NCBI GenBank assembly: GCA_017473165.1
Contig: JAFUNA010000022.1
Span: forward strand, 1-64,000
DNA length: 64,000 nucleotides
Reading direction: 5' to 3'
DNA from: Clostridia bacterium
GTDB lineage: Bacteria > Bacillota > Clostridia > Oscillospirales > Acutalibacteraceae
Position numbers and translations under genes: made by a program. Of the stretch, positions 310 to 10,067 are shown in pieces. Each line of letters begins with the position of its first letter. The stretch's first letter is position 1. The notes below the pieces were generated by a model, which worked only from the letters and a program-made list of their open reading frames with translations, did no database searches and was not told where the DNA came from.

Positions 310-573
310 TCAATCAATTATTTCGAAAGACCTGAGGTATGCCAGAAAATCAAGAACGTCCTTTTCGGCTTCTTCTTTGCTGACGTCATACTCATCTGTA
401 ATTTTTGTTATTATTTCTTCTTCATCAGAAGCCCCGGGAAGCATTTTCCAGATGCATGCCGCTGTTTCTGTCAGCATAAAAATTCCGTTTGTGCTGATTA
501 CACTGCCGCCTACGGGAACAAGGAGATATTCACCCGCAACTTCTCTGAACACCATTTGTTTGTTTATTTTCAT
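310..573 (-). CDS. PqqD-like peptide-binding protein
   Basis: An 87-residue protein with the PqqD-family pattern: short N-terminal strands (LLVPVG, STNGIFMLTETAACIWKML), then a helical part ending in DVLDFLAYLRSFEIID. PqqD-type domains are the RiPP recognition elements that hold a precursor leader and present it to a radical SAM partner. The start codon overlaps the stop of the upstream radical SAM gene by four bases, which implies translational coupling and a working pair. It is last in the minus-strand operon. Family assignment is good; the bound substrate is inferred, most likely the 81-residue peptide encoded at 3268-3513. Confidence 0.8.
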   Translation of the reverse strand: MKINKQMVFREVAGEYLLVPVGGSVISTNGIFMLTETAACIWKMLPGASDEEEIITKITDEYDVSKEEAEKDVLDFLAYLRSFEIID

Positions 574-1667
574 TGTGAATCTTCACTCCCGCTTTTAATT
601 TTGTTATATTCTATCAGGGTCAGCCTGTAGATTTCTTCAGCAAGCTTGCAAACGTATTCGGGTTTCCCGTTAAATTTGCCCGTTTCTGCATAACACATTG
701 CCGCACAAGCCTTACATATACCAAAATATAGGCACGAATGACATTCTGCGGGCATTTTTACGTCTTTTGTTTTGCTTTTAACTCTCTCCCACGCTTCCCA
801 AAATCCGACTTCAAGCGGTCGGGCTTCCAGCTCGGGGAGCATTCCGCAAGCACGCATAGCACCGTCAGAAGTTATCCAGTAAGACGACCTTCCCGCCCTG
901 CATCTGACTGTATCGACAGGCATACCGTTGCTTGGGGTAAGAAGCTTTTCAGCTCTCGGAATAAAACCGTCTTTACCGTTGCGAAACAGCTCGTTTTCAA
1001 CGGTTATTTTAGCGGCATCGGTATACGGCAATCTGGTGGAATTGTGTCCGTAGTCATTGTTAAGCCTTGCTTGCGGATAAACGTAAGCAGTTGTGCTTAT
1101 CTGCACGTCAAGTTCTTTTGCAATATTGATTATATCCTTGCAGCAATGAGCGTTTTTTTCTGTAATCACCGTGTTGATTTTCACCGGAATATTAAGTGCT
1201 TTAAGTTTTTTGATGTTTTCAATAACGTCTGAAAATTTATCGGCTTTGCAAAGACTGCGAAACGATTCGCTGTCTGAACCGTAGAGAGAAATATTGATTC
1301 TTGACGGCGGTCTTTCTTTGAAAAGGTCAAGATATTTATGAATAAGACTTCCGTTTGTATTGACGGACAATACAAAGCCCATATTGTTAAGTTCCCGATA
1401 AATGCGCTCAAAATCTTTTAAAATCAAAGGCTCTCCGCCGGTAAGGAGCAAAAACAAGGTTCCTGCTTTCTTCGCCTCTTCACCAAGTGAAATCCATTCA
1501 TCGGCAGAAAGTTCTTTGACATTGCTGTTTTCGCTGTGAACATAACACATTTCACATTTAAAATTACACCGTGAAGTTAATTCGAAGGTACCGGAAACAG
1601 GCAGACCTTTTTCGATACCTTTGGAATGAAGATATTGTATTAACCTCGGTTCCGTACTCAAAGACAT
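570..1667 (-). CDS. Radical SAM/SPASM peptide-modifying enzyme
   Basis: A 365-residue protein. The 4Fe-4S cluster motif CX3CX2C is at Cys34, Cys38 and Cys41 (TSRCNFKCEMC), followed by the GGEP SAM-binding motif near residue 77. The C-terminal third has many cysteines (VRCRAGR, AMRACGM, AECHSCLYFGICKACAAMC, EYVCK), the layout of a SPASM domain holding auxiliary Fe-S clusters. Enzymes of this type make thioether or C-C bonds in ribosomal peptides, or act as sulfatase maturases. Its overlaps with the HPr-kinase-like gene (10 bases) and the pqqD-like gene (4 bases) favour peptide maturation. The chemistry cannot be read from sequence; no sulfatase gene is nearby. Confidence 0.85.
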   Translation of the reverse strand: MSLSTEPRLIQYLHSKGIEKGLPVSGTFELTSRCNFKCEMCYVHSENSNVKELSADEWISLGEEAKKAGTLFLLLTGGEPLILKDFERIYRELNNMGFVLSVNTNGSLIHKYLDLFKERPPSRINISLYGSDSESFRSLCKADKFSDVIENIKKLKALNIPVKINTVITEKNAHCCKDIINIAKELDVQISTTAYVYPQARLNNDYGHNSTRLPYTDAAKITVENELFRNGKDGFIPRAEKLLTPSNGMPVDTVRCRAGRSSYWITSDGAMRACGMLPELEARPLEVGFWEAWERVKSKTKDVKMPAECHSCLYFGICKACAAMCYAETGKFNGKPEYVCKLAEEIYRLTLIEYNKIKSGSEDSQ

Positions 1668-2497
1668 AATTCATTCTCCAATACTCTGACCGATGATTCA
1701 TCGGGCAGACATTCAAACTTATAAACAGGCAACTCATCACAAATCTGATTTATGATATCAATAACGCCTGACGAAGAATCCGGATTACCCACAGGCAGAT
1801 AACAACCTGTCAGAACCAAAACAAACGCATCTGATGAAGAAAGACGGCAAAGCTTGTTTTCCTTTGCCTGAGCAAGACAGACAACTGCTTTAATCGGTGC
1901 CGTTATATTGCGGCAAAAGCCCGAAGATCCCGAAAACGGCAATCCGCAAGCAACAATATTTTCATCGCAACGTGAAATCATCGCTTTATCACCGTTGACA
2001 ATTTCAGCGTCCGCATATTTTTCCCAGAGCATAGCCTGTGTTGATTTTCCGGTTCCGCTCGGAGCGGTAAATAAAATTGCAGAGCCGTTTTTTATAATGT
2101 ACGAGGCGTGAATAACCGCTTTCTGACTGTCAGACATCAGTTCTTCAAAACCCAAAAGGTCAAATACCACTCTGTTCCATAATTTTTCTCTGAAATCAGA
2201 AAGGAGAATAACCTTTTTTGATTTTTCCGAAAAGATTCTGCAGGCATAGCATCCTTCCGCACCGTGGTTTTTATACCAGCAATACTGAACACCGCGTTCG
2301 TTATAAACGGTGATATCCGTACCCTCAACGGCATTGTCAGGTATTTCAGGCAAAAGCTCGGAAAAACTGTATTCAACCGTAAAATCAGCTTTGCATTCAT
2401 CACAAAGAAACTGCGAATAAGGCTCGCTGTTCACGATTTTAACGGGTGTGATAACCCTTATAACCGTATCATTGAATTTATAATACTTACTGTGCAT
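1658..2497 (-). CDS. HPr-kinase-like P-loop protein of a peptide-modification locus
   Basis: About 279 residues. A Walker A loop APSGTGKST lies near residues 145-153, followed by VNGDKAMI, as in the C-terminal kinase domain of HPr kinase/phosphorylase. The N-terminal half is cysteine-bearing and unlike HprK. Such HprK-like proteins accompany PqqD and radical SAM or lasso-peptide genes in many Firmicutes, where their role is mostly unknown. I chose the ATG at 2497, with GGTGATG upstream; a TTG nine bases earlier is possible. The 5' end overlaps the lipoprotein stop. Phosphorylation of the peptide or of a partner is only a guess. Confidence 0.7.
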   Translation of the reverse strand: MHSKYYKFNDTVIRVITPVKIVNSEPYSQFLCDECKADFTVEYSFSELLPEIPDNAVEGTDITVYNERGVQYCWYKNHGAEGCYACRIFSEKSKKVILLSDFREKLWNRVVFDLLGFEELMSDSQKAVIHASYIIKNGSAILFTAPSGTGKSTQAMLWEKYADAEIVNGDKAMISRCDENIVACGLPFSGSSGFCRNITAPIKAVVCLAQAKENKLCRLSSSDAFVLVLTGCYLPVGNPDSSSGVIDIINQICDELPVYKFECLPDESSVRVLENELCL

Positions 2498-3203
2498 AGG
2501 TAACAAACATCACCTTACTTCCGGAAGCTTTAAAATGCTCTGCATCAACCTGAGTTTTTTGGTTTGAACCAAGACCGTTGATTCTTACACGGTAGGTTGT
2601 TCCTTCGCTGAAAATGCCGTTTTCAATGCTTTTATAATAAACAAAGATATCTCCGTTAATATTTTCTCCTGAAATGTTTTTTACCGATATAAGCTTATCA
2701 CAGCACATAATCTCAAATATTTCAGGATAAAGTGAGATTTCTGACGTAAAAAAAGTTTTTTCTTCTATTTTCCAGTTGTAATAAGATGATTTTTTGTCGA
2801 ACGCAACTGGTCTGTCACTTTTAAGAATTGAAGTTGACCCTGCAGGAATTGTTGTCATGGGGAATTTCAAAACTTCATCTGCACAATTAACGCTGAGAAG
2901 GGCATGCTGAATATCTGTTTCAGAGATGTTTCTTATAACGATGCTTACAACACCGTCTGTTTCGCCGATACTGATAATTTTAAGCCAGCTGTCAACAATA
3001 AGCCCGACCTGCGAATTTTCAGGCTCTTTCGCTTTATAGGGACCGATTTCCCTGTCGGTAATTTCATTTGTGCTTACCGGCACTTCAATATCAGCTATGT
3101 TTACAAGTTCCCTGCTGAGCTCATTCTCTTTTTTACAGGAACAAAGAAACACAAGCGAAAAAACAACAAGAAAAACTATTGAATTTTTCAAAAAATTTTT
3201 CAT
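2487..3203 (-). CDS. Secreted lipoprotein of the peptide locus, function unknown
   Basis: A 238-residue protein with a lipoprotein signal: MKNFLKNSIVFLVVFSLVF followed by lipobox LCSC, with Cys at about residue 23. The mature part is mainly beta-strand-like, with stretches such as VVSIVIRNISETDIQHALLSVN and SVKNISGENINGDIFVYYKS that resemble immunoglobulin-like FxLYD-type extracellular domains, but I do not recognise a specific family. It would be anchored on the outer face of the membrane. It is co-transcribed with the maturation genes downstream and overlaps the next start by 11-20 bases. It could be an immunity, docking or export-associated factor; this is inference from position. Confidence 0.6.
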   Translation of the reverse strand: MKNFLKNSIVFLVVFSLVFLCSCKKENELSRELVNIADIEVPVSTNEITDREIGPYKAKEPENSQVGLIVDSWLKIISIGETDGVVSIVIRNISETDIQHALLSVNCADEVLKFPMTTIPAGSTSILKSDRPVAFDKKSSYYNWKIEEKTFFTSEISLYPEIFEIMCCDKLISVKNISGENINGDIFVYYKSIENGIFSEGTTYRVRINGLGSNQKTQVDAEHFKASGSKVMFVTYAQ

Positions 3204-3231
3204 AAAACAATCAATCCTCTTTTTCGGGAAA

Positions 3232-3257
3232 CAGCGGAGTTCAGAAGAACTCCGCTG
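3232..3257 (-). terminator. Strong stem-loop between peptide gene and downstream operon genes
   Basis: A perfect 11-bp inverted repeat (CAGCGGAGTTC and GAACTCCGCTG) with a four-base loop sits 11 bases after the stop of the 81-residue peptide gene and 29 bases before the lipoprotein start. There is only a short T-poor tail (TTTCCCG), so it is likely a partial terminator or mRNA-stabilising processing hairpin. It would let the peptide gene be expressed above the enzyme genes, a common arrangement after bacteriocin and RiPP precursor genes. Confidence 0.65.
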
Positions 3258-3267
3258 CCATAATTAA

Positions 3268-3513
3268 TCACGAAGAAAAAACATTGAAGTTTGCAACGGG
3301 AACGTCGTAGCAGACACTGTCGTTTCCGTCGGGAGGAATTGTGTCGCATGCAAATGTTGTTTCTGCAAAGATGAAAAGACCGAGGTTAGGATCTTCAACG
3401 GCACAGACATATTGAGCTGAATTCGTGCCGAGCAAAGAACAGCTGCCTGCCACGCTCGCCGAAAGCTGAATGCCTTCATAGATAGCCAAAGGCTTTACAT
3501 ATGACTTTTTCAT
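3268..3513 (-). CDS. Putative four-cysteine RiPP precursor peptide
   Basis: An 81-residue peptide preceded by the best ribosome site of the locus (AAAGGAGGA, seven bases before ATG). The N-terminus MKKSYVKPLAIYEGIQLSAS is lysine/tyrosine-rich and amphipathic like a leader, and ends in VAGSC. The remainder holds Cys25, Cys37, Cys56 and Cys68 plus many Gly, Asn, Ser and Thr, and ends CYDVPVANFNVFSS. It has no membrane segment. Its placement directly before the lipoprotein, HprK-like, radical SAM and PqqD-like genes suggests it is their substrate. Cysteine thioether or other crosslinks are inferred, not seen. Alternatively it is a small structural or secreted protein that only shares the transcript. 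Confidence 0.6.
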   Translation of the reverse strand: MKKSYVKPLAIYEGIQLSASVAGSCSLLGTNSAQYVCAVEDPNLGLFIFAETTFACDTIPPDGNDSVCYDVPVANFNVFSS

Positions 3514-3533
3514 TATTGTATCCTCCTTTCGGT

Positions 3534-6500
3534 TCAGACAAGCTTAATGCCGAAATTCAACAAAAGCTTTGCAAAGAAATCCAGAACAGTTCTGAAGAAA
3601 CCGATTATCTTTTCAAACCAAGTAGGTTCTGTAGTTTCTTCCTCTTCGACTGCGGAAACGGTTACTGTGATTGTAACGGGCTCGTTGTCGCCCGTGTAGC
3701 CGTTTACATAAGCGCCCGAAATTGAATAAGTGTATGTACCGCTTTCGCTTTCGGTAAGAACAACCGTCCATTCCTTGATATTTTCATTTTCAAGCTGTTT
3801 AACAACGCTTGTTACGCTTTCAGGTGTTATCACATTGCCGTTTTTATCCTTGATAATAAGCGATGAAACATCATCGGATGTTTTAACGGTGATAACAACA
3901 TCCTCGCCTGCATTGACGGTTTCATTTACGGTTACGTCATCTTCACCGATTTCAAGGTCGGCATATCTCATTGACATTGCGGTATAAGCATAACTCTGGG
4001 TTTCAACATTGGACATAAGAGCAAGGTTTTCGGTTGCTTCGTCATAATTCTCTGCATAGTGACCGTAAGCACCTGCGCCCGTGAATGTCCACTTCATATT
4101 GGTGAGTGAAAGAACGCTCTCTGCTGCAGATGTATTCTGAATAACAACCACACCGCTGGTGTAATATGTTACATCGCCAACCTGAACATTGGTCCATGCA
4201 AGCTTTCCGCCTACGGGAAGAACAGAGTTTATTGATCTGTACATTTCTGTTGCAGAGTTGATTTCGGTACTTACCGTATTTGCACCGTAAGAAACGGTAA
4301 ATACAGGTGCACCTGTGGCACTCTTGACACCGATCTGAACATCATCCGGAACTGCCGTTGCCCAAATTTCAAAGGCAACTGCCTGATTCTGTGCGAGGTA
4401 AAGCTCGTTGTTGGGACCTGCCTTCTTATACATTTCAAGGTCGTTATCGCTTGCGGCAATACCGTCAATGAAGATTACACCCTGAGTTGATGCATCCTGT
4501 GAAAGTGTGTTTGCGCCGATAAGCATATCCTTGATTTCAAGGTAGTTGGGATATGATTCCTTATCATCCTTAAAGGACTGAAGAATCTGATCGTCGGCAA
4601 TGCCGTCATCCTTGCCTGCGGGGTCATAAATACGGATAGCATCAATATAAAGATTATAATACTTGTTGCCGTCTGCATCAGTTTCATAATGCTTATAAAG
4701 ATCCGTAAATGCACAGGTAATAACAACTCTGTAATTTCCGTATTCAAGATCATTGACCTTCATAACGGGAATCTGATAAAGAGCTGCATCTGTGTCGCTT
4801 TCAACCCAGCCGTAAGCATAGTTATAAGCATAAGCGGGATTTTCGGTAACTGTTTCTGTCAAGTTACCGTCAGCATCATAATAAGTGGGAGTTTCGGTGT
4901 AGCCGTTGCCCGAAACATCGTAATAAGTTACTGTCTGAGTAGCACTGCCGTCTTTTACTGCGTAATAAGTCTTTGACGTTGTAACTGTGCCGAGAATACT
5001 GTTATAGAACGGAACTGCGGTTTCTTCAAGCGTTGTTTCGCCGTTTGCGTCTGCATAAAGCTTACCGTAGCTGTAGCCATAATAATTATCAACGATTCTC
5101 TTCTTGCCGACTCTTGCGCCTGTTTCATCATAGATATCAAGATAGAAAACGCCTGACTTACTGTCTGTAAGGCTTATGATATCAAAGCCCGTACCGCTGA
5201 ATTCAAATTCCATTGTGGGCCATGATGCGCCGGTGCCGCCACTGATTTTTGAATTGGGATTATTCTTTTCACTGACCGAAACAACGTGAGCTGAATATGC
5301 ACTGTAAGTTGTGCAATTATCATAAGCGGGGTCGTAGCCGTAGGGATTTGCGGAATCATCGTCTGCAAGGTCAGCAGCCTGAGTCATTGCGGTTTCTGTG
5401 CCGACTGTTTTCCATACGCCGTATTCATAGCTTGAATTGTCAAATCCCGAAGCTGTTGCACCGTCGGTAAATGAAATGCCGTTTGAATAGTTATCTTCAA
5501 AATAGATTGAAGTTGCGGGGATGAACGCCGTTCTTTCGTACTGATAATATTCTGTGTCTGTAGAATAGGTGGGGTCATTGGTAACCTTTGCACAAGAATA
5601 GAAATAATCTCTGCCCGTAAACTTAATTGTTGAGGGTGTAAATGTTAAAATACCGTCAGAATTTACGGTGCAGGTGCCGTAATTCAGGCCTTCAACATTG
5701 AGAACTGTATTGTCCGCACTGAATATTCCCGTAAGATTATCGGGCGGGTCAAAGCGGAGAATTTCATCAAGATTTGTGTTGGAAGCTGTAATTCCCACAT
5801 ACTCAACCGCTGCGTCTTTGGTCTGCGCAGCCTCTGAAATATAGTTATTAGAGGTTATGTCATAGGTTACCGGGTGACCGTAGTCAATAACAAGAGTCTG
5901 GTTATTGAGCTTGACATCCTCTGAAACCTGCTGAATGTTGAAGGTGATTTCGCAGTTTGAATCGGTTGAACCTCTTTCAAGATAATAGAAAGTAAAGGTG
6001 TGGTGATCTCCGTCCGTGCGAACCTCATTGAGCTTTGCAAGTGCAGCAAGGTTATCGGCGCTGATGCCGTCATTTGCTTCACCGTAGGTATAGGTTGTTC
6101 CGTATTCTGTGGTGCTCTTGACTTCGCCTTCAGCAACGTCCATTGCATACTGATATGTTACGGATGCATCAGTAAAGTTGATGCTTGCACCTCTCTTGCC
6201 GTGGAGACCGCCGTTATCAAGAACAAGCACATCGTCAATGTAAATGAGAACGTCATCGTCACCGGAAAAGTTGAAGATAACGTCTTCGCCGTCAGCATAT
6301 GTGCCTCCAACGGGAATGTAGAAATCGGTTGTGAAGGACATACCGAAATGATAAACGGCATTCTCACCTGTAAGGGTAGTTGTGTTGTTCTGATAGTTGA
6401 AGGGGAAGAATCCCTTGCCCTCGCCTTTACCTGCAAGGCTTATTGACCACTCATCAACAGGAGTAAGCTGTGCCGTTGCGGTATTTGTATCATCATCATA

Positions 6501-7787
6501 GGTTGCCTGGAAAAGATAGCTTTCGTTTGAGCTTGAATAATTGTAAGTATTTATACCGTATTCGTTTGTACTTACAACTAACGGGAAGCTGAGATCCCAA
6601 TAGAACTTTGAATAGCCTTGGGTTGTATCATCCGAATCAACATAAACTTCTTCCTTGGCAAACATATCATTGATGTGCACGCTCATTCCTTCAAGTGCAG
6701 GAAGATTTACAGTTTCCGATGTTGAGGAATCGGCTGTATAAATTGTCAGGTCATAGCCGTCAGAAGAATCGTGAAGTGAGTTTGACGGAACGATATTAGC
6801 ATAAGGAAGTGATGTGTAATCCGCATGGTCTGCAGGTAAGCCGTCAACAAGAAGCGCACTGAAAAGACCCTGAACAGAAGCACCCTCATTCTTATTCTCA
6901 TCTGCACCCTGCGTGTTTTCCTTTGTCCATCTGTTCCATGCAGTTTTGTTGATGGTAGCACTCCTGAACTCAGTTCCATCGGTTACGGGATAGCTCGTGA
7001 ACAGAAGTGAATAAATCTCGGCATAAGCATCAACTGCATCCTCAAGCGCAGCGTCTGCCATACCCTCGCCCCAATCGGTTCTTGTGTCATACCCGATTGT
7101 TTCTTTAATTTGTGCCACAAGGTTATCGTCCGCAAGAATCATCGCCTTCAATGAAGCAATCGTCTGCACGTTATAAGCCTCACCGCCCACCGAATAGGGT
7201 GAATCCGCTGAGGGATTATAGCCGTACTTATAAATTGTTGAAGGAATATACTTATATTCAATTGAAAGGCCTGTAATGGCATTGTTGATTGCAAGGGTTG
7301 CAGCGCTAAGCTCATCATCAGTTGCGTCTGCATTGTTATAAACATCATATCCCGCCTCAAGAGCATCAAACAAAGTCTGATAGCTTTCGGTTGAATATAC
7401 GCCGGGAGCATATGTTATGCCTTCGGTTAATGCAGAAAGAAGGGCTGACCTTGTGCTTGAAAGATTGCCGCTTGAAATACCCGATTCATTTCTGTAAAGG
7501 GTGAAAATCTGGTTGGAGCCTGCGCTCGAAGTGGAAGATGACCAGCAGCTAAACATATTATTAGCATCCTGGAAGTTATCAAGAAGATATGAACCTCTGT
7601 AAATATTCACCGTTCCGTCAGTTCTGCCGTATACTGTAAGTTCAACGGGATCATCGGAGAAAGTAACCGTTCCGTTGCCTGAACCCATTGTGAGATACTT
7701 ACCTTCACTGTTCTGAATGTAATACTGATTTGTTGTACCGTCAACCAGAGTAAAGGTATATTCATAGGTTGAATATGTTGTAATCAA
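3534..7787 (-). CDS. Giant fibro-slime/FIVAR-type surface protein, N-terminus missing
   Basis: A 1417-residue open frame rich in Asp, Thr, Tyr and Ser, like an extracellular matrix or adhesin protein. In order: a beta-rich lectin-like segment (about 1-105), a FIVAR-like helical bundle (about 108-175), a fibro-slime/PA14-like domain centred near residue 510 (FSGDDDVLIYIDD, then LDNGGLHGKRG), further beta-sandwich repeats with YYAVKDG and YNYAYGW stretches, and an amphipathic C-terminal helix after an acidic Glu/Thr linker (FEKIIGFFRTVLDFFAKLL). The first possible start is TTG at 7787 inside the T-tract of the preceding terminator. No ribosome site or signal peptide exists. The 5' end is therefore lost, rearranged or misassembled. 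It ends 20 bases before the peptide gene. Confidence 0.6.
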   Translation of the reverse strand: MITTYSTYEYTFTLVDGTTNQYYIQNSEGKYLTMGSGNGTVTFSDDPVELTVYGRTDGTVNIYRGSYLLDNFQDANNMFSCWSSSTSSAGSNQIFTLYRNESGISSGNLSSTRSALLSALTEGITYAPGVYSTESYQTLFDALEAGYDVYNNADATDDELSAATLAINNAITGLSIEYKYIPSTIYKYGYNPSADSPYSVGGEAYNVQTIASLKAMILADDNLVAQIKETIGYDTRTDWGEGMADAALEDAVDAYAEIYSLLFTSYPVTDGTEFRSATINKTAWNRWTKENTQGADENKNEGASVQGLFSALLVDGLPADHADYTSLPYANIVPSNSLHDSSDGYDLTIYTADSSTSETVNLPALEGMSVHINDMFAKEEVYVDSDDTTQGYSKFYWDLSFPLVVSTNEYGINTYNYSSSNESYLFQATYDDDTNTATAQLTPVDEWSISLAGKGEGKGFFPFNYQNNTTTLTGENAVYHFGMSFTTDFYIPVGGTYADGEDVIFNFSGDDDVLIYIDDVLVLDNGGLHGKRGASINFTDASVTYQYAMDVAEGEVKSTTEYGTTYTYGEANDGISADNLAALAKLNEVRTDGDHHTFTFYYLERGSTDSNCEITFNIQQVSEDVKLNNQTLVIDYGHPVTYDITSNNYISEAAQTKDAAVEYVGITASNTNLDEILRFDPPDNLTGIFSADNTVLNVEGLNYGTCTVNSDGILTFTPSTIKFTGRDYFYSCAKVTNDPTYSTDTEYYQYERTAFIPATSIYFEDNYSNGISFTDGATASGFDNSSYEYGVWKTVGTETAMTQAADLADDDSANPYGYDPAYDNCTTYSAYSAHVVSVSEKNNPNSKISGGTGASWPTMEFEFSGTGFDIISLTDSKSGVFYLDIYDETGARVGKKRIVDNYYGYSYGKLYADANGETTLEETAVPFYNSILGTVTTSKTYYAVKDGSATQTVTYYDVSGNGYTETPTYYDADGNLTETVTENPAYAYNYAYGWVESDTDAALYQIPVMKVNDLEYGNYRVVITCAFTDLYKHYETDADGNKYYNLYIDAIRIYDPAGKDDGIADDQILQSFKDDKESYPNYLEIKDMLIGANTLSQDASTQGVIFIDGIAASDNDLEMYKKAGPNNELYLAQNQAVAFEIWATAVPDDVQIGVKSATGAPVFTVSYGANTVSTEINSATEMYRSINSVLPVGGKLAWTNVQVGDVTYYTSGVVVIQNTSAAESVLSLTNMKWTFTGAGAYGHYAENYDEATENLALMSNVETQSYAYTAMSMRYADLEIGEDDVTVNETVNAGEDVVITVKTSDDVSSLIIKDKNGNVITPESVTSVVKQLENENIKEWTVVLTESESGTYTYSISGAYVNGYTGDNEPVTITVTVSAVEEEETTEPTWFEKIIGFFRTVLDFFAKLLLNFGIKLV

Positions 7788-7826: not shown

Positions 7827-9518
7827 TTAACCGACAATCTGTTTGCAAGCTAATATTTTTGAACCCGTGCAGGAAAGCTCAACGGTATCGCCTGCTTCAA
7901 GCAACAGCATATTTTCATGCTCTGATGCTTTTGCCTTGAAAATGTTGTTTTCTGTGTCAATCAGATAAATATAGGTGTTTCCGTCAATATCGATATACTT
8001 TACGGAAGCGATTGTAACGGTAACATTCTTCATTTCATCGGTCGGAGTCTGAACTTCGCTTATGCCGAGCATCGCTTTGTATTTTGCGATACATTCCGCC
8101 TGCGTTGCGGCAGTTGTAACAATGTTGTACTGCTCAACATTGACTGCGGCGTAAAGCTTCACAAGTCCGCCCGAATCCTTAAGCACCATAATATATGTGG
8201 GATTGCCCTCAACGTTAATCAAAGATGGGAACGAAGCCTGATAGCCCTTTTCCTGAACTTCGCCCTCTGCGGCTGCCATTGCGGATTTTTCATCGGCACC
8301 TGCAATCGCATAGTAGCGGCTTTCGCCCGTTCTTTCGTTGGCAAGAAGGAAGCCGATGTTTGAGCTGTCGCCGTTAACCGAAGTTACGCCCGTATATATC
8401 CATATATCGCCGTCTTTGGCAACATAACCGTAATCGGAAACGGGAGTTTCGTCAGATGAATCATCTTCTGAACTGTAGGTTGTAACCTGCTTGCAGCCCT
8501 TTTTGGCAAACAGACTGTTCATAAACCCGTTCTGATACATTCCGTACCAGTTATACTGCTCGCAGATAAGATCGCCGTGGAAAACAACGTCAATCCATCT
8601 CGGAATATCCGCAACATCATATTTAACAATTTCGCCCGATACGGGGTCAAGCACGATGCAACCGCTGACGGTTTTTCCGCCGAAGAGAGAAATTGTTTTA
8701 TCAACGATTGATGCAACATAATAAGGCTTTCCGCTTTCATCGATTTCAAAATGAAGATTCTCTGTCATCAATGTTGGATATTCCAGCCAGATGTGTCTTT
8801 TTGCATCTTCAAGAAAATATGCGGAGGGAATATATTTCATGCCTTCGGATTTTTCAAACGAAGCTGACATTGAAACGGGGTCAACGGTAACATAGCCTTT
8901 GACGCCCTCTTTGTTGTTCATCCATTTGAAGAATCCTGCATATTCAAGAGCAGAAACCTTTACGGGTTTTCCGTTGCAGTCAATCTGTATGTAATCGTTA
9001 GAAACATCAAACTGGCTGACGACATCCGAAAGAGCACCTATTTCACGGTCACCGAGCATTCGTGCAGAGGCGGTATCCATGAGAGCTATGGAATCGGTTT
9101 CAACGGACTCCGATAAATCGGCGGTGAAATCAGAGTCATTAACCTTCAGAATTTTTGCATAAGAGGTTGCGTTGAACATAGTGCTGCCGACAATGCCCGC
9201 TCCGATAACGATAACGGTCAAGGCGATGGGCAGGATGTAAGGTACTATTGAAAATCTGAATTCGCTGTATTTTTTTGTTCGTCCCTTTGAACCGGTCTTT
9301 TTTGAAACGGTTATCCAGCCGAAATCTTTGCATCCTTTTGCAAGTCTTCCTGCAAGGATTGCCGCAAACAGGGCAAGGATAACAATAACCCAAAAGACGG
9401 GATTACGGATATTGATTGCGGTGCTTGAAATAAAAAATCCCGCCGCTGATACAATCAGACCCGTAACCAAGCCCGTAATCAAACCTGTAATAACAGGTAC
9501 TACACCTGATTTTTTCAT
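7827..9518 (-). CDS. Multi-pass membrane protein with large extracytoplasmic region, unknown function
   Basis: 563 residues from the ATG at 9518, which has AAAGGAGTG six bases upstream; an in-frame start 30 bases earlier has no such site. Two hydrophobic segments lie near the N-terminus (VVPVITGLITGLVTGLIVSAAGFF and VFWVIVILALFAAILAG), then a basic loop, then a third (YILPIALTVIVIGAGIVG). About 400 mostly beta-strand residues follow, with repeated paired modules (YVTVDPVSMSA, CIVLDPVSGEI). I do not recognise the family. It follows two small genes and an HTH regulator in the same orientation and ends in a good terminator. Confidence 0.65.
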   Translation of the reverse strand: MKKSGVVPVITGLITGLVTGLIVSAAGFFISSTAINIRNPVFWVIVILALFAAILAGRLAKGCKDFGWITVSKKTGSKGRTKKYSEFRFSIVPYILPIALTVIVIGAGIVGSTMFNATSYAKILKVNDSDFTADLSESVETDSIALMDTASARMLGDREIGALSDVVSQFDVSNDYIQIDCNGKPVKVSALEYAGFFKWMNNKEGVKGYVTVDPVSMSASFEKSEGMKYIPSAYFLEDAKRHIWLEYPTLMTENLHFEIDESGKPYYVASIVDKTISLFGGKTVSGCIVLDPVSGEIVKYDVADIPRWIDVVFHGDLICEQYNWYGMYQNGFMNSLFAKKGCKQVTTYSSEDDSSDETPVSDYGYVAKDGDIWIYTGVTSVNGDSSNIGFLLANERTGESRYYAIAGADEKSAMAAAEGEVQEKGYQASFPSLINVEGNPTYIMVLKDSGGLVKLYAAVNVEQYNIVTTAATQAECIAKYKAMLGISEVQTPTDEMKNVTVTIASVKYIDIDGNTYIYLIDTENNIFKAKASEHENMLLLEAGDTVELSCTGSKILACKQIVG

Positions 9519-9581
9519 GTTTTTCACTCCTTTATTTGATTTTAACACGAATAATACTGCAAATCAATATTCAGTAAAGTT

Positions 9582-9806
9582 TTAACCGCACACCTTAAGC
9601 AATCCCACCGCACCTGCGATAAGTGCAACGGGTACGAGCAGAACAAATCCGCCGACGAAAATTGCGAGAAGAATAAATACGGGGACTGCGATTGCAAGCA
9701 GTATTGTTGCAACAATTTTGGCTGCACCCCACGTTATCTTGAATGCCAATCCTATGGCTTTGAAGAAAAGCCAGATTGCAAGAATTGAAAAAATTATTTC
9801 AAGCAT
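9582..9806 (-). CDS. Small hydrophobic membrane protein
   Basis: A 74-residue, almost entirely hydrophobic protein with two or three membrane segments (IIFSILAIWLFF, IVATILLAIAVPVFILLAIF, VALIAGAVGLL). The ribosome site AAGGAGTG lies about seven bases before ATG. Its start overlaps the 3' end of the 55-residue gene, so the two are probably coupled. Function unknown; it could assist the membrane protein encoded next. Confidence 0.6.
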   Translation of the reverse strand: MLEIIFSILAIWLFFKAIGLAFKITWGAAKIVATILLAIAVPVFILLAIFVGGFVLLVPVALIAGAVGLLKVCG

Positions 9807-9961
9807 TGATAATCACTCCTTGTTATCAGTATATTGCCGTGCGTGTTTTTGTTTCGGTCACTTTCATTTGATATTTCTACCCCGATAGTTTGTGCATAAT
9901 CGGGATTTTTTGCAAGTTTATCTGTCAGCCTGATAGCCAATATTTTCTGTCTTGGGCTCAT
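9794..9961 (-). CDS. Small basic protein, 55 residues
   Basis: Translation from ATG at 9961 gives a 55-residue protein starting MSPRQKILAIRLTDKLAKN and continuing PDYAQTIGVEIS. AAAGGAGTG is correctly placed seven bases upstream. The stop lies 12 bases inside the next gene, suggesting coupling. The N-terminal segment is a basic amphipathic helix; similar very short helical proteins are common in Clostridia but have no assigned role. The ribosome site and coupling support a real gene. Confidence 0.6.
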   Translation of the reverse strand: MSPRQKILAIRLTDKLAKNPDYAQTIGVEISNESDRNKNTHGNILITRSDYQCLK

Positions 9962-10067
9962 ATGCAACACTCCTTTGTGTTTCCTTGACTATATGATAGC
10001 TCAACAAATCGCAGAACTGAATTACACTTTGTGCGGAAAACACACCCTGTTTTTTCACAATAAATGC

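Follow-up and report, generated by a model that had tools for sequence, protein, structure and literature searches.

What is made by a short cysteine-rich peptide gene that lies beside genes for an HprK-like protein, a radical S-adenosylmethionine (SAM)/SPASM enzyme, and a PqqD-like protein? We examined one such locus in a Clostridia bacterium of the Acutalibacteraceae (GenBank assembly GCA_017473165.1), within a 64,000-nucleotide stretch of contig JAFUNA010000022.1. This stretch, here called the window, corresponds to contig C17 of genome G000 in our survey from base 1, and the contig ends 309 bases past the PqqD gene. The locus is a genuine recurring system of the ribosomally synthesized and posttranslationally modified peptide (RiPP) type, filed by none of the libraries used. 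From its sequence we judge, at somewhat better than even confidence, that the product of this RiPP-type operon most likely works with a giant secreted surface protein.

A gene set that recurs across genomes

Open reading frames (ORFs) placed the PqqD, radical SAM/SPASM, HprK-like, lipoprotein-like, and 81-residue peptide genes in one minus-strand operon (Table 1). The PqqD and radical SAM genes overlap by 4 bases and the radical SAM and HprK genes by 10, while the HprK and lipoprotein genes overlap by 20 bases with a TTG start at 2506 and by 11 with an ATG start at 2497. The original prediction, made from the letters of the window, had described five minus-strand genes with overlaps of 20, 10, and 4 bases downstream of the peptide gene. 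All five frames lie where it put them, with the 20-base overlap seen only with the TTG start; four genes, not five, are downstream of the peptide. The ribosome site it had credited to the peptide gene (AAAGGAGG) was likewise found, eight bases before the ATG. Its operon began at the peptide, which did not hold, because the stop of a 1,417-codon frame lies 20 bases upstream of the peptide start. That upstream giant, the C-terminal Ser of the peptide, the hairpin after the precursor gene, and an exporter encoded elsewhere had no place in it. A promoter scan gave a result no better than shuffles.

Giant, peptide, hairpin, lipoprotein-like, HprK-like, radical SAM/SPASM, and PqqD form a recurring, closely packed set, and we take the operon as more than chance because the genes recur in order in other genomes. 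With the window peptide as the query, 15 of 300 genomes of the family matched; a peptide profile matched 8 of 394 genomes of the order, and a wider profile matched 3 of 391 genomes of the class, each count including the window's own genome. These counts are lower bounds, since one peptide (L191) turned up only later, and genome G312 stands in both the order and class counts. Relatives were found by these whole-genome searches, and none by an exact-pattern contig scan with the single peptide. Two peptide matches were dropped as chance: L034 (genome G117), which does not fit the alignment and has no partner genes, and L066 (G621), which has neither a peptide frame nor partners.

Across 29 peptide loci (28 plus the window), the stretches fetched contained the HprK gene in 23, the radical SAM gene in 21, the PqqD gene in 19, and the lipoprotein gene in 19. 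The gaps include contig ends (L026 and L036) and orphan copies (L032, L037, L058, and L062); the giant and the peptide are kept, with the enzymes absent, in the first three of these copies. In G263, the radical SAM, lipoprotein, and PqqD genes are on another contig than the giant, peptide, and HprK genes. L030, whose peptide gene (9456-9593) is cut short by a stop, is within these counts and outside the C-terminus count given below; L115, whose peptide gene (9743-9974) is split over two frames, was left out of both the 28-row alignment and the C-terminus count. The border between the window's peptide family and sister precursors is arbitrary, with overlapping profile scores of 20 to 37 bits.

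The radical SAM family was present in 14 of 15 peptide-hit genomes queried, the exception being G117; of the other 8 of the 23 peptide-hit genomes, 7 have it at the peptide locus and the 8th is G621, so that both exceptions are hits taken for chance. Recurrence of the neighbors beside peptide homologues had been proposed as a check, and they do recur, at 19 to 23 of 29 loci per gene. The opposite outcome, homologues mostly lacking the radical SAM and PqqD genes, was not what the loci gave. What is generally asked of a RiPP system, a precursor, a recognition element, and a tailoring enzyme that are genetically linked and recur across genomes, is found here.

The precursor and its putative modifying enzymes

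Complete members of the peptide family have 76 to 89 residues, and the 28 complete peptides aligned contain 3 to 6 Cys. Y5, C25, and C56 are invariant among them, and P8, C37, C68, and Y69 are conserved in at least 90%; the peptide is long and conserved up to its C-terminus across genera. Both the leader-like N-terminus and the four cysteines (Cys25, Cys37, Cys56, and Cys68) of the original prediction were borne out, the former by a Y5xxP8 motif. One report (PMC12710340) gives a W/Y/LxxP/L/I recognition sequence for RiPP recognition elements (RREs) such as FusE, McjB, PqqD, and StsC; besides PqqD, the set includes one sactipeptide RRE and two from lasso systems. Because Y5xxP8 fits that sequence, we counted it for leader binding by PqqD. 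The window peptide has no signal-peptide-like stretch (highest 11-residue hydropathy of 1.34 in the first 30 residues); by the same measure its relatives score 0.26 to 1.35, with one at 2.09, and the window lipoprotein scores 3.32. None of the family members matched Pfam, and NCBIfam gave no family match, just two single-member hits (E values of 0.047 and 0.093).

The radical SAM enzyme carries the CX3CX2C motif (C34, C38, and C41) and seven SPASM-type cysteines (C256, C274, C309, C312, C318, C321, and C340), as the prediction of a CX3CX2C motif and a cysteine-rich SPASM region implied, and all ten are invariant in a 20-row alignment. SkfB is the closest PDB sequence relative of the family profile (E value of 7.8e-27); PqqE (6c8v) and 4k37 are also among its relatives. 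The best NCBIfam match of the PqqD protein was a lasso PqqD model, below its cutoff. We rate it as quite probable that, in the cytoplasm, PqqD would bind the still unmodified peptide through its YxxP leader and that the radical SAM/SPASM enzyme would then crosslink the cysteine-rich core, most simply through thioethers at Cys25, Cys56, and Cys68. A second PqqD-like gene of the same genome (L002:1486-1833) lies in another context, beside a gene for a large membrane protein.

The protein called a lipoprotein in the original prediction owes that label to its N-terminus alone: no Pfam family was common to its 18 aligned rows, and its profile matched no convincing solved structure. Nor did the window's HprK-like protein, lipoprotein, or peptide match a Pfam family above the cutoff.

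The 80-base stretch that contains the hairpin folds at -30.1 kcal/mol (z of -6.0; none of 200 shuffles folded as low). Hairpins that are also strong but differ in sequence follow the precursor in all 12 relatives folded, at z values of -2.7 to -6.9, with 1 or 2 of 200 shuffles doing as well in three of them; the folds cover loci without short gaps after the precursor. The hairpin would be a terminator at L032, L058, L110, and L112, where it is followed by no enzyme gene. In the window it may act so that more precursor than enzyme is made.

The HprK-like protein and the C-terminal Ser

G150, K151, T153, and Q154 of the P-loop, plus H130 and D170, are invariant in a 21-row alignment of the HprK-like family, of which the profile found only one copy in the window's genome. 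A natural HprK-radical SAM/SPASM fusion of 661 residues occurs at L028 (7079-9064), and natural HprK-PqqD fusions of 372 to 378 residues occur at L166 (7994-9130), L176 (8058-9194), and L188 (8195-9313). The fusions at L166 and L176 adjoin a radical SAM gene and a 63- to 64-residue frame ending in V.

HprK homologues of lasso clusters are described in two reports as phosphorylating the C-terminal Ser of the precursor (PMC8498205, PMC5067487). A C-terminal Ser was present in 28 of 30 complete peptides, namely, 27 of the 28 aligned and L191, with L149 ending in Tyr. For comparison, Ser ends 30 of 610 long ORFs and, among overlapping spurious short ORFs under the same leader rule, 19 of 253. A precursor ending in Ser, the mark of a lasso-type C-terminal Ser kinase substrate, is thus found here, and not in all HprK branches. 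Seventeen divergent sister-locus precursors also end in Ser (L108, L110, L112, L114, L116, two in L117, L119, L120, L122, L131, L133, L135, L136, L137, L155, and L196; those of L114, L116, L117, and L137 were chosen by eye), as does the C-terminal piece of L115; L196 has no HprK gene in the stretch fetched. An HprK tree of 48 rows showed clustering of the Ser label, with 3 changes versus 10.1 in shuffles (0 of 500 as low); near-copies help this clustering, and the tree has 13 open forks and several long branches. Apart from L149, the window's 28-row branch is all Ser.

Several observations weigh against a kinase acting on this Ser. The best PDB match of the HprK-like profile, to the HPr kinases 1jb1/2qmh, is weak (E value of 0.0063). 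At L149, HprK lies 62 bases from a family peptide ending GSY. Other endings than Ser occur in one sister branch (L125, L129, L130, L132, and L170), at the fusion loci L166 and L176, and at L139, L140, L153, and L175; at these last four no radical SAM family match lies beside HprK, with one weak hit in the stretch of L140. A prediction fixed beforehand for 40 further HprK loci called for Ser on leader-bearing short ORFs beside HprK and radical SAM genes; only L170 has all three, and its ORF ends in Gly. Seven same-strand short ORFs no more than 5 kb from HprK satisfy the leader rule (L149, L153 twice, L155, L170, L175, and L177); only that of L155 ends in Ser, and we rejected the general rule that HprK means a C-terminal Ser. 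L061, which has no HprK gene in the stretch fetched and a peptide ending GSF, also stands on this side; it was considered as a natural experiment and set aside because L149, in the same genome, has HprK adjacent yet ends GSY. The Ser prediction is therefore a fair one for the window's HprK branch and not a general one. By analogy with the lasso kinases, we give an even chance that the HprK-like kinase phosphorylates the C-terminal Ser of the window peptide as the next step after crosslinking.

At L140, a 38-residue frame (8686-8802) and the tail of a 353-residue secreted-looking protein (8841-9902) both end GWSDWWTPE(F/Y); the pair adjoins HprK and PqqD genes.

The giant upstream protein and export

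A frame of at least 1,000 residues ends within 200 bases upstream of the peptide at 21 of 29 loci, and the contigs of L031 and L037 begin within the tail of such a giant, raising the count to 23 of 29; at L035, L061, and L064, the giant is elsewhere in the stretch. The fronts of these giants vary, with GH2 (L022 to L024), SpaA/GBS104-like (L025), GH88 (L033), and ricin-type lectin (L039) domains and a VWA match below the cutoff (L057). Despite their differing fronts, the giants have in common a rear module of ~220 residues, which gave no convincing Pfam or PDB match and, for the window row, no Pfam match. Complete giants begin like Sec substrates (by inspection). The nearest relative of the window giant, L022 of the same genus, has 2,751 residues, a signal-peptide-like start (by inspection), and GH2 domains. 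Window and L022 DNAs match at 80.5% over 383-7784 and homology then stops; therefore, the window giant lacks its 5′ half, either because the DNA was truly rearranged or because the assembly joined unrelated pieces. Just past the cut at 7784, at 7827, lies the end of an unrelated gene (ORF 7827-9548).

The module was found in 13 of 130 family genomes, comprising all 6 peptide genomes (G000, G003, G015, G063, G076, and G108) versus 7 of 124 others. The profile includes rows from four of these six; with the row donors removed, the comparison is 2 of 2 versus 7 of 124 (Fisher P value of 0.005). No peptide genome without the module was seen, with the unmatched genomes listed only in part. Among the seven others, G018, G026, G079, G107, and G112 carry sister HprK loci, G080 has a peptide and a radical SAM gene at L191, and the module of G060 is unexplained.

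A distinctive ABC exporter adjoins sister HprK loci; the one member that was scanned lacks a peptidase domain. A profile built on the exporter's N-terminus matched 16 of 20 peptide genomes (all except G000, G162, G532, and G576), or 11 of 15 without the five row donors. In a 150-genome sample at an E value of 1e-15, the exporter was present in 7 of 8 peptide genomes versus 12 of 142 others, and without row donors in 5 of 6 versus 9 of 139 (Fisher P value of 2.3e-5, relatedness ignored); the contrast was weaker at 1e-5 (7 of 8 versus 33 of 142). Both the exporter and the giant-module associations stand without row donors. The earlier statement that no ABC exporter is visible thus holds locally but not for 16 of 20 peptide genomes, which encode one elsewhere, the window's genome not being among them.

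After modification, the leader would be removed, perhaps just before Cys25, and the core would be exported by an ABC exporter encoded elsewhere. Outside the cell, the modified peptide may encounter both the lipoprotein and the giant's conserved module, a step that, from the sequences, we rate slightly below even. Weighing against this course of events, the window's own giant is without its N-terminal half and signal peptide, and the window's genome (G000, 88% complete) yielded no exporter orthologue by profile. The second Cys is absent from the peptides of L026 and L027. The giants of L060 and L063, which are among the 21 above, go unmatched by the giant profile, and no recognized giant lies beside the peptide at L028, L059, and L062. 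Conversely, module-bearing giants without an adjacent peptide occur at L189, L190, L194, and L195. We had predicted a peptide directly 3′ of a module-bearing giant everywhere; this held at one of six testable new places (L196) and failed at L189, L190, L191, L194, and L195, with the L191 peptide elsewhere in the cluster. Outside this count, L192 continues into a further giant, the stretch of L193 stops within its giant, and L197 has no module match. Both newly seen peptides, those of L191 and L196, end in Ser.

Among the genes at sister loci are S24/S26-like peptidases, of which one of three scanned exceeded the Pfam cutoff, and PF14907 nucleotidyltransferases (2 of 2 scanned); several sister loci sit among polysaccharide genes (by inspection). 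The HprK systems of L116, L125, L129, and L139 lie near nucleotidyltransferases (PF14907 in L116 and L125), S24/S26-like peptidases, ABC exporters, or polysaccharide genes. In the window's genus, an additional HprK-radical SAM system accompanied by an ABC exporter is found at L107 and L109; a giant protein is encoded at L109 as well, together with a peptide truncated where the stretch ends.

Table 1 Features of the locus in the window
Feature	Position	Strand	Basis or remark
PqqD-like RiPP recognition element, 87 aa	310-573	-	Pfam PF05402, E value 8.7e-18
Radical SAM/SPASM enzyme, 365 aa	570-1667	-	Pfam PF04055, E value 5.5e-26
HprK-like P-loop protein, 279 aa	1658-2497	-	P-loop; TTG start at 2506 also possible
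Predicted lipoprotein or membrane-anchored protein, 238 aa	2487-3203	-	N-terminal hydrophobic stretch, then Cys
13-pair hairpin between precursor and enzyme genes, candidate attenuator	3230-3259	-	Fold
Precursor peptide, 81 aa	3268-3513	-	YxxP leader motif; Cys25/37/56/68; C-terminal Ser81
Ribosome site of peptide gene, AAAGGAGG	3522-3529	-	Sequence reading; eight bases before ATG
Giant protein, 5′ end cut, 1,417 codons	3534-7787	-	Fibro-slime and PA14 matches below cutoff
Conserved giant module, ~220 aa, motifs YDPAG and GPNNE.YL	4158-4835	-	Alignment A7

Known relatives and competing explanations

The original prediction could name no RiPP class for the locus. No library model covers the peptide; the trio of HprK, PqqD, and radical SAM/SPASM proteins, however, has precedents. 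By sequence comparison, its nearest named relatives are the SynChlorMet models of NCBIfam and the HprK-bearing lasso clusters. The SynChlorMet cassette, which combines an HprK-like protein, PqqD, and radical SAM/SPASM enzymes (ScmC, ScmD, and ScmE among its models), supplies the commonest NCBIfam match of the window's HprK family (ScmC, 14 of 21 members). The window proteins nevertheless score far below its cutoffs (ScmC, 20.9 against 125; ScmD, 19.2 against 100; ScmE, 72.1 against 400), and the window locus differs in having one radical SAM gene, a giant protein, and a lipoprotein. The HPr-rel-A cutoffs (HprK_rel_A, 19.4 against 200; PqqD_rel_X, 21.3 against 35) and those of the lasso PqqD models (34.5 against 80 and 32.5 against 70) are likewise unreached. 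A radical SAM/SPASM maturase beside a Cys-rich precursor, as in the sactipeptide and ranthipeptide systems of SkfB, StsB, and PapB, is present here, but the enzyme falls short of their cutoffs (SkfB, 70.3 against 300; StsB, 64.5 against 625; PapB, 58.2 against 340) and of that of AlbA, and the precursor family is absent from Pfam and NCBIfam; all NCBIfam scores are from the best 25 of 72 families shown. By curated cutoffs, then, the system is not SynChlorMet, HPr-rel-A, or a named sacti- or ranthipeptide maturase family.

Phosphorylated lasso peptides of the paeninodin type, from Firmicutes, are described as combining a PadeB1 RRE, an HPr kinase homologue, and a C-terminal Ser (PMC8498205, PMC5067487). 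The window shares a PqqD-type RRE, a putative HprK-type kinase, and a precursor ending in Ser, and differs in having a radical SAM/SPASM enzyme instead and a longer, Cys-rich precursor. By eye, and with no profile run, no lasso cyclase or B2 protease was recognized among the ORFs listed for 1-30000 of a contig that starts at 1. In another report, QhpC is a small Cys-bearing peptide that is crosslinked by the radical SAM enzyme QhpD, loses its leader, is exported by an ABC transporter, and serves as the gamma subunit of quinohemoprotein amine dehydrogenase, a larger exported enzyme (PMC7876137). The window shows no visible heme subunits, flavoprotein, or protease of the subtilisin type; a giant surface protein would take the partner's place, and HprK and PqqD are extra. 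In how it would work, the system resembles lasso-type leader recognition with a terminal kinase, joined to SPASM chemistry and perhaps to a QhpC-like structural role. A literature search that covered few subscription papers returned no work combining PqqD, HPr kinase, radical SAM, and SPASM and none combining HprK, radical SAM, and RiPP; fibro-slime with radical SAM returned one work, on another subject, and SynChlorMet was absent among the PqqD matches listed.

Three other readings have to be weighed against a partnership of the modified peptide with the giant. Cys-rich cores with radical SAM/SPASM and PqqD-type proteins are the familiar outfit of sacti- or ranthipeptide-like bacteriocins, so the peptide could be an ordinary antimicrobial RiPP, with the lipoprotein, its companion at 19 of 29 loci, as the immunity protein and the giant as a mere neighbor. 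That explanation sits poorly with L032, L037, and L058, which keep the giant and the peptide without the enzymes and the lipoprotein, and with the conservation of a long peptide to its C-terminus across genera; we consider it unlikely, although it is the strongest of the three. Anaerobic sulfatase-maturating enzymes act on large proteins, and one of the same superfamily (4k37) is among the PDB matches; with giant and enzymes in one operon, the radical SAM enzyme and the kinase might act on the giant, the peptide being an unmodified small protein or adaptor. The Sec-like starts of complete giants, the pairing of PqqD with a YxxP leader, and the fusions of HprK to a radical SAM enzyme (L028) or to PqqD (L166, L176, and L188) point instead to the peptide, and we give this alternative only a small chance. 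Least probable, and improbable by a wide measure, is that the peptide serves as the scaffold from which a small redox cofactor or carrier is made, of the kind known from the PQQ or mycofactocin pathways. PqqD, a PqqE-like enzyme (6c8v among its PDB relatives), and a nearly invariant CY pair near the C-terminus would suit it; the whole length (76 to 89 residues) rather than a short core is kept, no cofactor-excising or finishing genes recur beside the peptide (by inspection), and the neighbor is a giant secreted protein, not a dehydrogenase.

In its most specific form, the partnership with the giant would make these peptides a structural RiPP class, in which a radical-SAM-crosslinked peptide with a phosphorylated C-terminal Ser is the small fixed partner of giant modular surface proteins; we offer this tentatively and regard it as doubtful. 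If true, such giants would pair variable fronts (glycoside hydrolase, lectin, pilin-like, or VWA-like) with one conserved rear module, and where sister systems lie beside nucleotidyltransferases and polysaccharide genes, a sugar or polysaccharide could be attached through the phospho-Ser. One precursor would carry both radical SAM and HprK chemistry, and whether C-terminal Ser phosphorylation extends beyond lasso peptides can be tested directly at this locus. Searches for RiPPs usually look for free antimicrobials or cofactors; a radical SAM/kinase system that recurs and is linked to giant carbohydrate-active surface proteins would extend the QhpC case to the cell surface of anaerobes.

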